Assembly: GCA_017983635.1 (NCBI GenBank)
Contig: JAGOBA010000001.1
Location: 248,001-312,000, forward strand
Length of the DNA stretch: 64,000 bases
Source of the DNA: Alphaproteobacteria bacterium
GTDB taxonomy: Bacteria; Pseudomonadota; Alphaproteobacteria; Micropepsales; Micropepsaceae
Direction: 5' to 3'
Shown here: positions 11,264 through 19,128 of the stretch, one piece after another
Position numbering within the stretch: position 1 is the first letter of the stretch
How the letters are laid out: each line of letters opens with the position of its first letter
Program-made: the position numbers and the translations under genes
Notes under the pieces: model-generated
What the model was told of the DNA's origin: nothing
The model's input: the letters and a program-made list of their open reading frames with translations, nothing else
The model's database searches: none

Positions 11264-12070
11264 ATGCGTGGGGCTCTTCTCATCTTGGCGATCGGCGCCA
11301 TGCTGGCGTGCGCGAATGCGCGCGCGAGGCAGTTCGACGCCGTTCAAGATTTGGCGCAAGAGAAAGCCGCCGCCGTTGCTTTGTTCAAACGCCGCGCCTC
11401 GAGCCAAGTTGCGACGCTGGCGCAGGACCGACTGTTCGCCGCCTACCTCACGGCCGCGACGCTTGGCGAAGGCGAACGGTTGCGCAGGCGCATCGAGGCC
11501 GCGCTCGGTACGTTGAACAAGCGCTTCGGCATCCGCGAGGTCACGCTCACCGATCGTTCCGGCGAGTTCGTTGTGCGCGTCGGCGACTACGACAAGTCGA
11601 TCGCCAAAGTCGATCCGAAATTGGACATGGTCACGATGGCCGGTTTTGCTGCGCCCGCACGCCGGACGGCGGTTCTGCATGGCGTGACGACGGTCGTTCA
11701 CGCGGCCGCGGTCATCTGGCGCGAACAGGCGGAGTTCGTGCTCAGCGCGACGCAACACTTCGCAGCCTATAAGACCGTTCTCGCGCGCGGCCTCGGCAGG
11801 CGGCAAGCGGTCGTACTGATCGACGAGAAGGGCGCGGTGCTCGCCGACAGCCGCCCTGGCACAAACACGAAAATTTTGGGCGGTATGTCGTTCGACGCGC
11901 TGCAACGCGCGCTTAAGGGGACGGCGGAGGCCGGCGCCGGCGAGGTCGTGCGCGGGCCGGAGCACTTCAACGTGAGTTACAAGGCGGTCGATGGATGGAC
12001 GGTGATTGCGGTTGAGACCGCAGAGCCGCTGCGCCGCTGTTCGAAGGATGGGGCGCGTCTATGTGGTTGA
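11264..12070 (+). CDS. Secreted sensor-like protein partnered with a kinase-like protein
   Basis: A 268-aa protein with a signal peptide (LLILAIGAMLACANARA) and a periplasmic body resembling a double Cache sensor: a long helix (residues about 25-85) followed by two alpha/beta lobes, with LTDRSGEFVVRVGDY and LIDEKGAVLADSRP strands typical of Cache/PAS-like binding pockets. Its 3' end overlaps the kinase-like gene by ten bases, so the pair is translationally linked. Probably a soluble extracytoplasmic partner of that sensor; no catalytic motif. Confidence 0.65.
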   Translation: MRGALLILAIGAMLACANARARQFDAVQDLAQEKAAAVALFKRRASSQVATLAQDRLFAAYLTAATLGEGERLRRRIEAALGTLNKRFGIREVTLTDRSGEFVVRVGDYDKSIAKVDPKLDMVTMAGFAAPARRTAVLHGVTTVVHAAAVIWREQAEFVLSATQHFAAYKTVLARGLGRRQAVVLIDEKGAVLADSRPGTNTKILGGMSFDALQRALKGTAEAGAGEVVRGPEHFNVSYKAVDGWTVIAVETAEPLRRCSKDGARLCG

Positions 12071-13888: not shown

Positions 13889-14713
13889 CTATCCCTGCAT
13901 TGCCATGAAGAGTTGCCGCGTTGCCTCGTCTGCCGCGTAGAGCGTTTCGATGCGGAGTTCGTCGGCGGTGATGTCTTGGGCGGTGCCGAAGGTTGCGATT
14001 ACCGTGAAGAGCGATATGCGTAGCCCGTCTTTCGTCATCTCCAGCGGCAGCACGGGGACAAGCGCCGCGTCTTCAGCGGCCCAAAGGGTTTCGGCCTCTT
14101 GGTACTGGCTGAGGTCGGCGAGAACAGCTTTCATTTCTTGACCGCCGAGCGCCTCGGCTTCGCGTTGGGCGCGGTGCCACAGTAGCGGGGCCACGGCCGC
14201 CCAGTTCGTCACGAGCGGCTTGATGCCGTTCGGGTGGAAGAAGAGGCGCATCAGGTTGCGCTCGGCGCCGCCGACGCGGGTCCAGAGATCGGGCCCGATC
14301 AATTCGCTCATCATGTCGAACGGTTTGTTCGAAAGGCGGATGTTCCAGGCGCGATCGATGGCGACGGCGGGGAACGGCGCGGCGCTGGTCAGCATCATGC
14401 GCACGGCGTGCATCACTTGCGTCATCTGTGGATCGTCCAAGGGTCTCGCGCGAAAGACGGGCGCAAAGCCCGCGGCGGTGAGCCAGTCGTTGCGTTCGCG
14501 CAAAGGCACCTCCAGCGTTTCGCTGAGCTGGAGGATCATGCTGCGACTGGGCTTCGCGCGGCCGGATTCGAGGAAGCTGACGTGGCGCTGCGAGACGCCG
14601 GAGGCGAGCGCCAGATCGAGTTGCGACATGCGCCGCTTCGAGCGCCAGGACTTGAGCAGATTTGGGAATTGCTCGCCGATGCGGCCGGTGGGCTCGAACG
14701 TGGAAAGGGACAT
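13889..14713 (-). CDS. XRE-family regulator with MmyB-like ligand domain
   Basis: 274 aa. Residues about 10-70 form a Cro/CI-type HTH (LKSWRSKRRMSQLDLALASGV, SQRHVSFLESGRAKPSRSM), and the rest matches the MmyB-like PAS-type ligand-binding domain (AIDRAWNIRLSNKPF, LMRLFFHPNGIKP). The ATG at 14713 is preceded by AGGAGG with five bases spacing, so the in-frame upstream start at 14761 is rejected. It sits between the kinase-like gene (convergent) and the DUF3604 operon (same strand). Target unknown. Confidence 0.88.
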   Translation of the reverse strand: MSLSTFEPTGRIGEQFPNLLKSWRSKRRMSQLDLALASGVSQRHVSFLESGRAKPSRSMILQLSETLEVPLRERNDWLTAAGFAPVFRARPLDDPQMTQVMHAVRMMLTSAAPFPAVAIDRAWNIRLSNKPFDMMSELIGPDLWTRVGGAERNLMRLFFHPNGIKPLVTNWAAVAPLLWHRAQREAEALGGQEMKAVLADLSQYQEAETLWAAEDAALVPVLPLEMTKDGLRISLFTVIATFGTAQDITADELRIETLYAADEATRQLFMAMQG

Positions 14714-14785
14714 GTTGCCTCCTGCTGACCCCATTGTCGGCCGTCGGCGGCGGGTATTCAATGACCTCGGAGGTAATCGGAGCGC

Positions 14786-15976
14786 CTACGCGAGGGCTCG
14801 CGACACGAACCAGAAGGTGCCCAGAGCGAAAAGGAACGCGGCAGTGGCGTCGAATGCCACAGAGGGCACTTCCTTGAGGGTGCGGTGGAGCGCCCAGAGG
14901 ACCGCGGCCAAGATCGCGAGCGCCGTTAACTGGCCGAGCTCTACGCCGACGTTGAAGGCGAGCAGTGTCCAGATCAGGCTGCCGGACGGGATGTGCAGCG
15001 CAAGCAATGGGCCCGCGAATCCTGCGCCGTGGGCGAGGCCGAAAACAGTGGCGATGACCGGCGCGACATACGGGGCGTCGATGCCGCGGGCGTAGGACAT
15101 CGTGACAGCGAAGAGCGCGATGCCGCCGATGACAATCCACGGAAGCACCGGCAAGCCGAGGATATGCGCGAGCGGTGGCAATAGAAGAATCCCGGCGGCG
15201 CCGATCAGCGCGTAGGATCGCGGGATCGCTCGTGCGCGGGCGAGCGCGTCGCCCGCTGCCCACGCGACAGTGAAGCCGATGAGGGATTCGATCGTTGCCG
15301 TTTCGGGCTTCAGGATTCCGAGCGCTACCAGGGCCAGCGTCAGCGAGTGGCCAAGCGTGAATCCGGTGACAGCGATCAAGATGCGCCACACGCCGCCGGC
15401 GAGCATAACGAGCGCGATCAAGAACGCGATGTGGTCGAGGCCGGAAAGGACGTGTTCGTAGCCGAGGGCGAGGAAGCTCAAGAACGTGTTGGCTTGCTGC
15501 GTCGATGGCGCGCCGATTTCGACGGTCGTGTGGCCTTCGGTCAGAATTGCCTCATGCGCGCCGGCCGCGTCGGTCAGGCGGATGTAGTGCACGTGGCTGA
15601 TCGATACTTCGAAGAAGGCGCCGACGGTCAAGGTGGCGGGGCTTTGCCCGAACGGCTTCGGGCAGCCGATATGCATGGCAACGCGAATGTCGCCGCGCGG
15701 CGCCGGGATCGCGCGCGGCGCGACCGCGGCGCAGGGCGCCCCGTCTTGGGTAAGCTTCACCGTGCGGGCCAAATGGGTCGCGACGAGCGTGGGTAGGTCT
15801 TGGGGCGTTTCGCTGAGCTGCGTCGCGCGGTAAGCGTCGACCTGAAAGACGCCGTCGAGCGAGTCCGCGCCGACCGTCCAGGTGGAAAAGCTTTGGCTGC
15901 GCGTGTGGGCTTGCACGGGCGCCGCGAGCGCCGCCATCAGCCATGCGATGAGGACAAGCAGAGCCCTACTGCGCAT
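14786..15976 (-). CDS. HupE/UreJ-family membrane protein
   Basis: 396 aa: signal peptide (about 1-23), an extracytoplasmic domain to about residue 170, then seven or so membrane helices. The family signature is clear: YEHVLSGLDHIAFLIAL followed by TGFTLGHSLTLAL, with His/Asp residues inside the membrane, and a third His in FGLAHGAGFAGP. Characterised HupE and UreJ proteins take up nickel or another divalent metal. It overlaps the PPIase gene by 11 bp and closes the DUF3604 operon. Confidence 0.9.
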   Translation of the reverse strand: MRSRALLVLIAWLMAALAAPVQAHTRSQSFSTWTVGADSLDGVFQVDAYRATQLSETPQDLPTLVATHLARTVKLTQDGAPCAAVAPRAIPAPRGDIRVAMHIGCPKPFGQSPATLTVGAFFEVSISHVHYIRLTDAAGAHEAILTEGHTTVEIGAPSTQQANTFLSFLALGYEHVLSGLDHIAFLIALVMLAGGVWRILIAVTGFTLGHSLTLALVALGILKPETATIESLIGFTVAWAAGDALARARAIPRSYALIGAAGILLLPPLAHILGLPVLPWIVIGGIALFAVTMSYARGIDAPYVAPVIATVFGLAHGAGFAGPLLALHIPSGSLIWTLLAFNVGVELGQLTALAILAAVLWALHRTLKEVPSVAFDATAAFLFALGTFWFVSRALA

Positions 15977-16838
15977 CTGGCTTGGGCGCTGTCGGGGCGT
16001 AGGAGATACGGGCGCGGGAGCGGAGCTCCTTGACGTAGGCTTCGAAGGCTTCTTCGGTTTTGCGTTTCCGCCATTCTTCGGCGACGACGGCGCGGACTTC
16101 TTCGAGCGGCGGCGGCGGGACTTCGGCGCGGTCGACGACGTGGACGAAGACGACGCGGCGGCCGATCGGGATCGGCCCTGCGGTGCGGCCGATGCTCAGC
16201 TGCAGCGCGGTGTCACGGACGGTGGGGCCCGCGTACTCGGCGATTTTTGAGGGGATGATCGGGCCGTTTGGCAGCAGGATCGGCGTGGCGCCGGCGATAT
16301 CGGTGGCCGTTTTGAAATCTCTGCCGGCTTGGATCGCTTCGGCGAACTTCTTCGCGCGATCGAGTTCACCTTGGTCGATCGAGACCGCTCGCACGGTTAT
16401 CAGCGGCTGCGGCGCGATCAGTTTCGGGCGGTCGGCGTAGAATTTGCGCAGATCGTCGTCGCTGGGTTCGAGCTTGGCGGCATCGGCGACAGAGAATTGC
16501 AGCATGGCGTTGACGAGCGCCTTGCGGGAGGGCGGGTCGGACTCGGCCAGGCCAAGTTCCAGCGCCCGGCGGAGCAGCAGTTCCTCGTCGACGATGCGTT
16601 CCAGCGCTTCGCGCTTCTCCGCGCCGGTCAGCGGATTGATCTTTGCCTCGCCCAATCCGGTGATCGCCGTGTCGTAGACGGCGTTTGGGATCGGGACACC
16701 GTCGACGACTGCGATTGCGTCGCTGTACTTGCCGATTGCATCGCCGACGCCCAGTGCCGACCACATCGCGGCGCCGAGCCCAAAGGCGGCGCCGGCGATC
16801 AGGAGATAGTTCGAGAGCTTCGCCTTCGTCTCAGCCAC
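15966..16838 (-). CDS. Membrane-anchored parvulin-type peptidyl-prolyl isomerase
   Basis: 290 aa. An N-terminal anchor (about 10-30), a SurA-like N domain (VDGVPIPNAVYDTAI, VDEELLLRRALELGL) and a parvulin/PpiC domain at about 140-240 (LPNGPIIPSKIAEYAGP, GPIPIGRRVVFVHVVD). It is expected to fold exported proteins at the outer face of the inner membrane. It is sandwiched between the DUF3604 gene (8-bp overlap) and HupE (11-bp overlap), which implies it is the chaperone for one of those two. Confidence 0.85.
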   Translation of the reverse strand: MAETKAKLSNYLLIAGAAFGLGAAMWSALGVGDAIGKYSDAIAVVDGVPIPNAVYDTAITGLGEAKINPLTGAEKREALERIVDEELLLRRALELGLAESDPPSRKALVNAMLQFSVADAAKLEPSDDDLRKFYADRPKLIAPQPLITVRAVSIDQGELDRAKKFAEAIQAGRDFKTATDIAGATPILLPNGPIIPSKIAEYAGPTVRDTALQLSIGRTAGPIPIGRRVVFVHVVDRAEVPPPPLEEVRAVVAEEWRKRKTEEAFEAYVKELRSRARISYAPTAPKPDAQ

Positions 16839-19128
16839 CGCTGTTTCCGGGCGCGGCCGGCGCAGCGGGCGCGGGCAGCGCCGCAGCCGAGGTGCCGTAG
16901 TCGAGGTAGATGGGCGACGACCAGGCGCGGTGCTCCGACGGCGAGGTGCAGGCGCTTTCGCCGGAGCGATAGTCGCCGTAGCAGAGCGTCGCCTTGATGC
17001 ACTTACCGTTGCCGTCGCGCTCGCACTTCACGGGCTCGGCGTTGATCGTCGGTTCGGCTTCTTGGATCGCCTTGACGTAGTAGATCGCGTCCCGCTTGCC
17101 TTTCGTGTATGCGGGATCGGTGAAGGTGAACGTGCAGCCGTCTGCGCTCGGCTTACAGGTGTGGATCAGGTAGCGATCCTCGATCAGATCGGCGAGCTTG
17201 TCCGTCGCACTCGATTGCGGGCGGATTTTCACGACTTCGATGCGCGTGATCTGACGGCGTTCGTCGGACGGGTTGTAACACTCGCCCGAGCAGATCGTCT
17301 TGATGCGCTTCTCGTCCAAGCCCGCCTTGGCAAAATCGGGGCAGCCCGGCTTTTGTTTGAAGGCGCCGACGGCTTTGACTTCGAAGGTCGGCGCAACATC
17401 GGTTTGGTCGCGGCTGCCCATCGCAATTCGATTGCCCTGCGCATCGATGGCATGGAACCAGAGCAGAATGCGTGGACCGGAGGTCGCGTAGACCTCCCGG
17501 CGCTGCAGCGAGTCCCAAATCGCATCGCGCGAGCGGTCGGCGGCGTGTACGGCGGCGAGACCCCCGGCCATCCAAAACGACGACTGACGTTCGAACTCGG
17601 TCAGCTGGAAGCCTGCAACAGCGGTCAAGTCGTCGCGCGAGAGGCGATGCGACAGCGCGTCGGGCTTGCCTTGATCGGGCAACAGACGATCCCGCCACGC
17701 CTCGCTCCGCGCGCCGCCGGCCTCGGTGTTCTTGCGGCGGTCGACGGCCTTGTAGCCGGTGCCGGGGCGGGCGCGGTGGTTGTCGGAAGAGCCGATAAAG
17801 CCCCACTGGAAACGCGTCGCCTTGCCGGAAGGATCGTCGAAGGTCGAGGTCGCGAGCGCCGCTTGGACGGATGTCGCAGCGCGATGGTTGAACGGCGGCA
17901 TGAAGCAGTCGGTGCACTGGCCCGCGTCGAGCCAGTCTTCCGGCGTCTCGCCGCCGATGGCGAGGTGGCCCGCCACGCCCATGTTGGCGTAGTCGTCACG
18001 TGCTTGGGCGGCCCGCTTGGTGCAGTCGGCCGCAGCAGTGCCCTCTTTCAAGCAGCGGTCCATGATGATTTCGCCGGCGCGCCAGCAGCTGGGCGTGTAG
18101 TTCGCGGTCGGCTGCGGGCAGGTTGCCGATTGGCCATCCGGATTGGGGATCACATCCTGCCAAGAGCGATATTCTTCCGAATTGCCGTGGCCGGAGTAGA
18201 CTTCAACGAGGCGGAACTTGTCGGAACGCTCCGCCGCCGTCAGCGACTTGTTCCAGGTGGTGCCGGGCGGCGTGTAGAAGCCCCAGCTTGAACCGTGCGG
18301 GATGATGAGCGGGTTCAGCTTTTGCTCGTCAAAGAGCTTGCGCACCAGATCGCCCGGCGTGTTCGCCGCTTCGTAGCAATATTGCGGCAGCTCGTTCGAA
18401 GCCGTCTTTGTATTGCATTCCGGCACGGCCTGCGTCAGGCGCATGAAAGTGTTGAAGTCGAAATACGGTTGCCGGTTGGCGAAGTCGAGCAGCGGGATCG
18501 TCGGCGGAATGCCGCGGAACGAACGCAGCGCCGTGGAAGCGACGCCACCAGCGCCGATGGCGCGCGCGGAGACCTTGTCGTCGTCGAGATCTTTGAAGAT
18601 GACGTTCTTGTGGCCGAAGTGTTCGCTGGGCAGGCGGCCGACTTGCGTCCACTCGAAGCCGACGAAGGAGACGAGGTCGGGATTCGGTCCATCACCCGCG
18701 ATCTTCTGGCAGGCACGGATCGAATCTTTTGTGCGCTGCCAGCGGAGCGGCGTCACGGTCTCGGCGTGGTCGGTGATCGACCAGAAATCGAGCGCGGAGC
18801 AGTAGCGGGCGAAATCGCAAGCGTCCGCAACGGGATGCACCCCAGCCCCGCCCAGCATCGGCAGCGAGAACTGGAACGCGTCGGCGGAGAAGGTCGTGTG
18901 GACGTGGAGGTCGCCGAACAGGATTTGGTCGTTCTCGCCCTCTGGCGCCATCGCCTTCGTGGCGGCCATCCTGCCGGTGACGATGTCATCGGGGATCCGC
19001 TTGCCTTGGATGACACCTGCGTCGCGCTCGGCGCCGAACCAGCCTTCGGTCGCGCCGTACCAGAAGACGCCGAAGGCGGCGCCCAGGATGAGCGCCAGCA
19101 CGACCAACCAACCGATTATCCGCAGCAT
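16831..19128 (-). CDS. DUF3604 protein (PHP-like, membrane-anchored)
   Basis: 765 aa with an N-terminal anchor (MLRIIGWLVVLALILG). The body matches DUF3604, with PHP-like metal-site segments in order: GDLHVHTTFSADAF, DFWSITDHAE, SFVGFEWTQ and GSSDNHRARPG. Several Cys pairs in the second half fit an extracytoplasmic location. The reaction is unknown. The ATG at 19128 follows GAGGGGGG; in-frame upstream starts (to 19245) have no such site. First gene of an operon with the PPIase and HupE, divergent from the M13 peptidases. Confidence 0.9.
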   Translation of the reverse strand: MLRIIGWLVVLALILGAAFGVFWYGATEGWFGAERDAGVIQGKRIPDDIVTGRMAATKAMAPEGENDQILFGDLHVHTTFSADAFQFSLPMLGGAGVHPVADACDFARYCSALDFWSITDHAETVTPLRWQRTKDSIRACQKIAGDGPNPDLVSFVGFEWTQVGRLPSEHFGHKNVIFKDLDDDKVSARAIGAGGVASTALRSFRGIPPTIPLLDFANRQPYFDFNTFMRLTQAVPECNTKTASNELPQYCYEAANTPGDLVRKLFDEQKLNPLIIPHGSSWGFYTPPGTTWNKSLTAAERSDKFRLVEVYSGHGNSEEYRSWQDVIPNPDGQSATCPQPTANYTPSCWRAGEIIMDRCLKEGTAAADCTKRAAQARDDYANMGVAGHLAIGGETPEDWLDAGQCTDCFMPPFNHRAATSVQAALATSTFDDPSGKATRFQWGFIGSSDNHRARPGTGYKAVDRRKNTEAGGARSEAWRDRLLPDQGKPDALSHRLSRDDLTAVAGFQLTEFERQSSFWMAGGLAAVHAADRSRDAIWDSLQRREVYATSGPRILLWFHAIDAQGNRIAMGSRDQTDVAPTFEVKAVGAFKQKPGCPDFAKAGLDEKRIKTICSGECYNPSDERRQITRIEVVKIRPQSSATDKLADLIEDRYLIHTCKPSADGCTFTFTDPAYTKGKRDAIYYVKAIQEAEPTINAEPVKCERDGNGKCIKATLCYGDYRSGESACTSPSEHRAWSSPIYLDYGTSAAALPAPAAPAAPGNSGG

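Follow-up and report, generated by a model that had tools for sequence, protein, structure and literature searches.

What could tie a putative metallohydrolase of the DUF3604 family, a parvulin-type protein and a permease of the HupE_UreJ_2 family together is the question raised by a stretch of alphaproteobacterial DNA of 64,000 nt and 63% G+C, corresponding to positions 248,001-312,000 of contig JAGOBA010000001.1, that we call the window. Three intact open reading frames on its minus strand (14786-19128) encode these proteins in that transcriptional order, and their coordinates bear out the overlapping operon proposed by an earlier reading of the letters (the original prediction), with 8 bp shared by the DUF3604 and parvulin genes (16831-16838) and 11 bp by the parvulin gene and hupE (15966-15976).

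19128-16831, minus strand: DUF3604 protein, 765 aa; ATG at 19128, stop codon ending at 16831
16838-15966, minus strand: membrane-anchored parvulin-type (SurA/PpiC-type) protein, 290 aa; GTG at 16838, stop codon ending at 15966
15976-14786, minus strand: HupE_UreJ_2 permease, 396 aa; ATG at 15976, stop codon ending at 14786

Linkage of the three genes

The original prediction had set its operon against a chance co-occurrence of the three genes, and neighbourhood statistics came out against chance, which we reject since both co-occurrence and proximity lie far above it. Among 398 genomes drawn evenly from the phylum, DUF3604 is present in 34 and HupE_UreJ_2 in 104, and the permease family occurs in 33 of the 34 genomes with DUF3604 versus 71 of the 364 others (Fisher p = 2e-20). 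The two genes lie at most 2.4 kb apart in 30 of those 34 genomes (p about 1e-61 under random placement, for which the expectation is roughly estimated at about 0.7% per genome); as the genomes are related, both p-values overstate independence. A PF13145 match, the parvulin family, adjoins the DUF3604-HupE pair in nearly all linked genomes. DUF3604 is only a fragment in two of the 30 (G090 and G209), and at G090:C2:46141-46476 a single 333-aa frame has a match to the DUF3604 N-terminus followed by one to the C-terminal half of HupE_UreJ_2, which makes it a likely deletion remnant of the operon.

Gene order was read in 140 loci scanned with models built in this analysis. The arrangement seen in the window, with DUF3604, parvulin gene and hupE running in one direction, was found in 35 loci; DUF3604 diverges from the parvulin-hupE pair in 14, follows it on the same strand in seven and converges on it in two, and there are a few duplicated variants. 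The trio is preserved across no fewer than four different arrangements of order or orientation, and a set kept together through such changes is stronger evidence than one inherited operon. When 'linked' is mapped as a label onto the tree of 128 DUF3604 proteins, 17 changes are needed, compared with 42 in shuffles. Wherever a locus holds both, the parvulin gene stands directly before hupE and on its strand (a median of 7 bases separates the parvulin stop from the start of the HupE-domain match), and the pair also occurs without DUF3604 in six loci; parvulin and HupE thus form the invariant pair, and DUF3604 is its usual companion. These results support a functional linkage of the three genes, as the operon logic of the original prediction required, with the difference that the tightest pair is parvulin-HupE and not DUF3604-parvulin.

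The groupings that the original prediction mentioned for other proteobacteria are real, and wider than it supposed. The linked trio is found in Alphaproteobacteria, SAR11, Gammaproteobacteria and Deltaproteobacteria, with cases in Maricaulis maris, OCS116, Rhodobiaceae, Parvularculaceae, Caulobacteraceae, SAR11, Salinisphaerales and several Deltaproteobacteria, and its occurrence across such distantly related bacteria points to a common function in the cell envelope. Among named genomes, a scan in which the 8 kb surroundings were fetched gave 80 loci, mostly of a long DUF3604 type described below: 22 have both partners, three the parvulin gene only, one hupE only (some of these at contig ends) and 54 neither. 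Unlinked DUF3604 genes belong mostly to SAR86, Myxococcales and other Deltaproteobacteria. In SAR11 the parvulin gene lies beside DUF3604 in all nine loci and hupE in eight, one contig ending first. The SAR11 trio is divergent in eight loci, hupE and the parvulin gene pointing one way and DUF3604 the other, and in the divergent loci an alkyl-sulfatase-like MBL lipoprotein gene adjoins hupE. Five loci of unrelated genomes have a gene of another MBL-fold hydrolase family a few kb or less from the trio. Between the parvulin gene and DUF3604 of one locus (L061:6821-7642, minus strand) lies a gene for a 273-aa protein with multiple transmembrane segments and a His-rich loop; this protein and a membrane protein beside the pair in L062 look like Ni/Co transporters by eye and have no Pfam match, and we claim no identity for them.

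The genome of the window also holds two further DUF3604 genes, about 125 kb away and about 63% identical, without the parvulin-HupE pair.

G000:C10:392258-396744 (L064): tandem DUF3604 pair, followed on the opposite strand by an acyl-CoA dehydrogenase-like gene

Acyl-CoA dehydrogenase genes adjoin long-type DUF3604 genes in several other Alphaproteobacteria (five loci), and such neighbours might hint at a lipid-derived substrate. HupE_UreJ_2, for its part, has a second and separate context directly beside DUF4198, without parvulin or DUF3604, in six loci.

The DUF3604 protein

The window protein matches PF12228 at 87.4 bits (cut-off 20.4) in two partial stretches only, and its full-length relatives, at 40-83% identity, form a longer, cysteine-rich DUF3604 type. 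It consists of an N-terminal transmembrane anchor, a PHP-like metal-binding domain and a C-terminal beta-rich region. The original prediction had described a secreted PHP-like metallohydrolase; the PHP assignment is upheld by ligands and fold, whereas the modelled protein is more likely membrane-anchored than freely secreted, because its single strongly hydrophobic stretch, residues 1-27, is modelled as a helix. Of its 20 cysteines, 19 are shared by 90% or more of 46 relatives, which makes a folding helper plausible.

Fourteen sequences down to 22% identity retain H75, H77, D83, D120, H121, E159, H173, H278, D449 and H451. The pattern HxH, D/E, H, E, H, H, DxH is one that we take to be the PHP set, and its nine presumed ligands (H75, H77, D83, H121, E159, H173, H278, D449 and H451) are present in 128 of 128 sequences, or 127 for H173; H75 and H77 belonged to the selection rule for that set and are also invariant in alignments A1 and A2. 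Nine PHP metal ligands have been described for histidinol phosphatase (PMC5460133).

18898-18906, minus strand: PHP motif I, H75-x-H77, invariant in 128 relatives
17776-17784, minus strand: PHP motif IV, D449-x-H451, in 128 of 128

Sequence searches of the PDB with DUF3604, as a single sequence or as profile A1, found no true relatives, so that fold comparison was needed. The AlphaFold2 model (46 rows) has a pLDDT of 94.1 and a pTM of 0.94, and the only PDB entry below E 0.001 was the PHP-like phosphoesterase 3E38, which also has a second domain (probability 1.00, E 1e-3, with a modest TM-score, 0.51 of target); PHP chains of PolIII came further down. Ligand set and modelled fold together support DUF3604 as a PHP-type metallohydrolase, and by analogy we infer that it is most likely a phosphomono- or phosphodiesterase with a two- or three-metal centre.

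The parvulin-like protein

Here the match is to PF13145 (Rotamase_2), at 37.5 bits (cut-off 27). A hydrophobic segment at residues 11-31 agrees with the membrane anchor claimed originally and is followed by the Rotamase_2, or parvulin, domain at 125-249; a SurA_N-like region is weak and below cut-off. The 'folding catalyst' of the original prediction is not supported, both active-site histidines being gone and neither position being conserved in the clade of the window protein (37 rows).

16386-16388, minus strand: A151, at the parvulin His position of the first strand, by alignment
16149-16154, minus strand: V229-V230, at the parvulin His position of the last strand, by alignment

These positions were mapped from the clade alignment, not from a structure. 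The canonical clade keeps the His motifs: beside canonical DUF3604, all 31 proteins have H or Q at the first-strand position, and 30 of 31 have H at the last-strand one. Aligning an E. coli PpiC sequence with the parvulin set gave no reliable result, and a PDB sequence search with the window protein found no true relatives. Since both active-site histidines are lost, catalysis of prolyl isomerisation appears unlikely, and judging from the sequence a non-catalytic role as chaperone or adaptor is more likely.

The HupE_UreJ_2 permease

The third protein matches PF13795 at 122.5 bits (cut-off 24.5) and comprises a signal peptide, an N-terminal beta-sandwich domain of metal-binding type and a multi-transmembrane domain. 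Reading the cleavage site from the AxA pattern, between VQA and HTRSQS, gives a predicted mature protein that begins HTRSQSFSTW and exposes a histidine as its first residue; His24 is found in 36 of 36 clade members, S27, S29, S31 and W33 in 97-100%, and two cysteines (82 and 105) are also conserved.

15908-15976, minus strand: signal peptide ending V-Q-A, which leaves His24; Ala23 in 94% and His24 in 100% of 36 clade members
15905-15907, minus strand: His24, the predicted mature His1, invariant
15587-15595, minus strand: H128-x-H130, with H128 in 100% and H130 in 94% of 36 clade members; no such conservation in the remaining 43

The H128-x-H130 motif is conserved only in the HupE clade that accompanies the long DUF3604 type; the HupE proteins beside canonical DUF3604 have a His after AxA in most cases, without H-x-H. 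In the membrane domain H175, D181, H182, H210, E230, H316, N342, E346 and Q349 are invariant.

PDB sequence searches with HupE (single sequence and profile A3) found no true relatives. The mature protein was modelled with a pLDDT of 85, and the fold of its N-domain matches PA4063 (zinc), ZrgA (zinc) and 9GCE (Ang-1, copper), all with probability 1.00; TM-scores were highest for PA4063 and ZrgA (0.55-0.71 of target), and the match to 9GCE had E 7e-5 and a TM-score of 0.50 of target. Scanned over its full length against Pfam with E values up to 0.1 allowed, the protein gave PF13795 only and no membership in the ZrgA or PA4063 families, so that the resemblance is one of fold. The model supports an N-domain of metal-binding type, the membrane domain has its conserved His, Asp and Glu residues, and to this extent the metal permease of the original prediction stands.

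Genes around the operon

The neighbours of the operon are also retained within the genus.

13889-14761, minus strand: XRE-type regulator with MmyB-like ligand-binding domain (MLTR_LBD); PF17765 at 82.3 bits, PF01381
19351-21414 and 21591-23660, plus strand: M13 zinc metallopeptidases in tandem, 72% identical to each other, upstream of the operon and transcribed away from it
11264-12070, plus strand: exported protein of 268 aa
12061-13887: histidine kinase (dCache-HAMP-HATPase_c), overlapped by the exported-protein gene by 10 bp (12061-12070)

The regulator gene lies downstream of the operon in the same direction, a position kept in the four genus relatives whose contigs reach that far. Its open reading frame was listed from a TTG, and alignments with two genus relatives start at residue 17, which is an ATG at 14713 and probably the likelier start. 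Together with the tandem M13 pair, this regulator forms surroundings of the operon that are retained among other members of the genus, as is the pair of exported protein and histidine kinase downstream. M13 genes also adjoin DUF3604 in three other loci and lie at most 8 kb away in a fourth. Rfam and tRNA scans of the window gave no matches.

A possible system and its rivals

It is possible, if a little short of probable, that an envelope PHP phosphoesterase acts as one system with a metal-capturing permease and a membrane-anchored chaperone without catalytic activity. DUF3604 would be a membrane-anchored metalloenzyme of the PHP superfamily facing the periplasm, and the processed HupE_UreJ_2 would use the N-terminal His of its beta-sandwich domain to capture a transition metal beside the permease, with zinc or copper as the likeliest candidates. 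The parvulin-like protein, acting like PpiD as a chaperone or adaptor without catalytic activity, would serve HupE first and would also help the cysteine-rich DUF3604 to fold and to acquire its metal at the inner membrane. The metal supply assumed by the original prediction, like a transfer of metal from HupE to DUF3604 and a physical contact of the three proteins, is something that we infer. By analogy zinc is the likeliest metal, since the fold neighbours and the phosphodiesterase Sb-PDE (see below) use it; copper and nickel are also candidates.

Several observations weigh against the proposal of one system. The 54 long-type DUF3604 loci that are partnerless within 8 kb (some on short contigs) and the six loci with the pair alone speak against a strict mutual dependence. 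The fold matches are by domain only, at low identity (12-15%), and a search for an AT-rich or zinc-regulator-like palindrome upstream of the window operon and in the divergent SAR11 promoters yielded nothing convincing. Furthermore, the members of the HupE family are known or proposed importers of metal, and a periplasmic enzyme has no need of metal import into the cytoplasm; outward delivery would, to our knowledge, be unprecedented for this family. A more specific version makes the trio a dedicated metalation machine for envelope enzymes: the His1 domain of the HupE permease would pass metal to a parvulin adaptor devoid of catalysis, and this adaptor would pass it on to a PHP hydrolase that is exported and folds in the periplasm. 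We consider this version distinctly unlikely. If it were true, metal would be inserted outside the cytoplasm with a secondary permease taking the place of a P-type ATPase, and SAR11 hupE, read so far as a 'nickel' gene, would have to be reassigned.

Import is also what has been proposed for the published anglerases (PMC12537917), and it agrees with a scavenging scheme in which DUF3604 would hydrolyse phosphorylated organic ligands outside the inner membrane, freeing metal (and phosphate) to be caught by His1 of HupE and imported by the permease, which the parvulin would help to assemble. This scheme accounts for the parvulin-HupE pair existing alone, and the trio is retained in nutrient-starved SAR11; we nevertheless consider it somewhat unlikely, as there are no recurrent genes for outer-membrane receptors or metal ligands beside the trio and no site for a metal or phosphate regulator was found upstream of the window operon or in the divergent SAR11 promoters. 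The existence of both components on their own, the two extra DUF3604 genes of the window genome and the divergent arrangements, which have only a promoter region in common, would fit a shared regulon, with a metal-uptake unit of parvulin and HupE and an independent DUF3604 metalloenzyme that are needed under the same condition without touching each other. That reading is rather unlikely in our view, because the commonest order is one of overlapping co-directional genes and the trio has been rebuilt in several orders; secreted zinc enzymes of other families (M13 peptidases and MBL hydrolases) recur nearby, which would be compatible with a common metal theme on either view. Finally, the HupE/UreJ annotation and the nickel uptake of Rhizobium HupE, as cited in PMC12537917 and PMC4771312, would favour ordinary nickel uptake for hydrogenase or urease with DUF3604 as an incidental neighbour. 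We reject this highly improbable explanation: the linkage to DUF3604 is far above chance, the HupE clade has its own N-domain signature, and the HupE_UreJ_2 proteins beside nickel-binding DUF4198 are a set separate from those linked to DUF3604.

The linkage bears on more than this operon. It gives DUF3604, on which the literature holds almost nothing (one incidental mention) despite its complete metal centre, two partners and testable predictions, and the system could open to experiment the question of how the right metal reaches enzymes whose folding takes place outside the cytoplasm. It also alters the interpretation of many genes annotated as nickel permeases, including the hupE/ureJ of SAR11, which has been counted as nickel uptake (PMC4771312). 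Anglerase-HupE proteins have already been described; as far as we have searched, in the open literature without subscription papers and preprints, the DUF3604-parvulin-HupE trio has not.

Comparison with known systems

PpiD is a periplasmic membrane-anchored parvulin-like chaperone and shares with the window protein a single N-terminal transmembrane anchor, a region resembling SurA and a parvulin domain that lacks the catalytic residues. Unlike PpiD, the window protein is much smaller and is tied to one operon instead of general export. DUF3604 has the PHP ligand set and a second domain in common with 3E38 (BVU_3505), a PHP-like metal-dependent phosphoesterase, whereas identity is about 12% and DUF3604 is larger, membrane-anchored and cysteine-rich. 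The nearest characterised enzyme by class is Sb-PDE of Sphingobium TCM1, an exported PHP phosphodiesterase with 2.1 Zn (PMC5460133), which is classed in PF02811 and is likened to DUF3604 by description, not by sequence.

The anglerases, defined in 2025 (Franco Cairo et al., PMC12537917), bind Cu (74 nM) and Ni (220 nM) via His1, while Asn41, the second ligand in RbAng-1a, is reported to be poorly conserved; the neighbours named for them are DUF4198, indigoidine A-like proteins and PfkB, and the main text of that paper makes no mention of DUF3604 or a peptidyl-prolyl isomerase (PMC12537917). Like Ang-1 (PMC12537917; 9GCE), the window HupE has an N-terminal beta-sandwich with a His1 after the signal peptide, followed by a HupE_UreJ_2 permease; unlike Ang-1, its clade adds the conserved H-x-H and an H-x-x-S-x-S-x-S-x-W motif and is linked to parvulin and DUF3604. 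The fold of the N-domain is also that of ZrgA and PA4063 (8F1B, 7BGO). The conserved zinc site of ZrgA uses N-terminal histidines (PMC9820375), and its N-terminal His and disulfide have their counterparts in the His1 and the two conserved Cys of the window HupE. A difference is that ZrgA and PA4063 occur as stand-alone proteins of the periplasm associated with ABC importers, while the domain in the window is fused to its permease.

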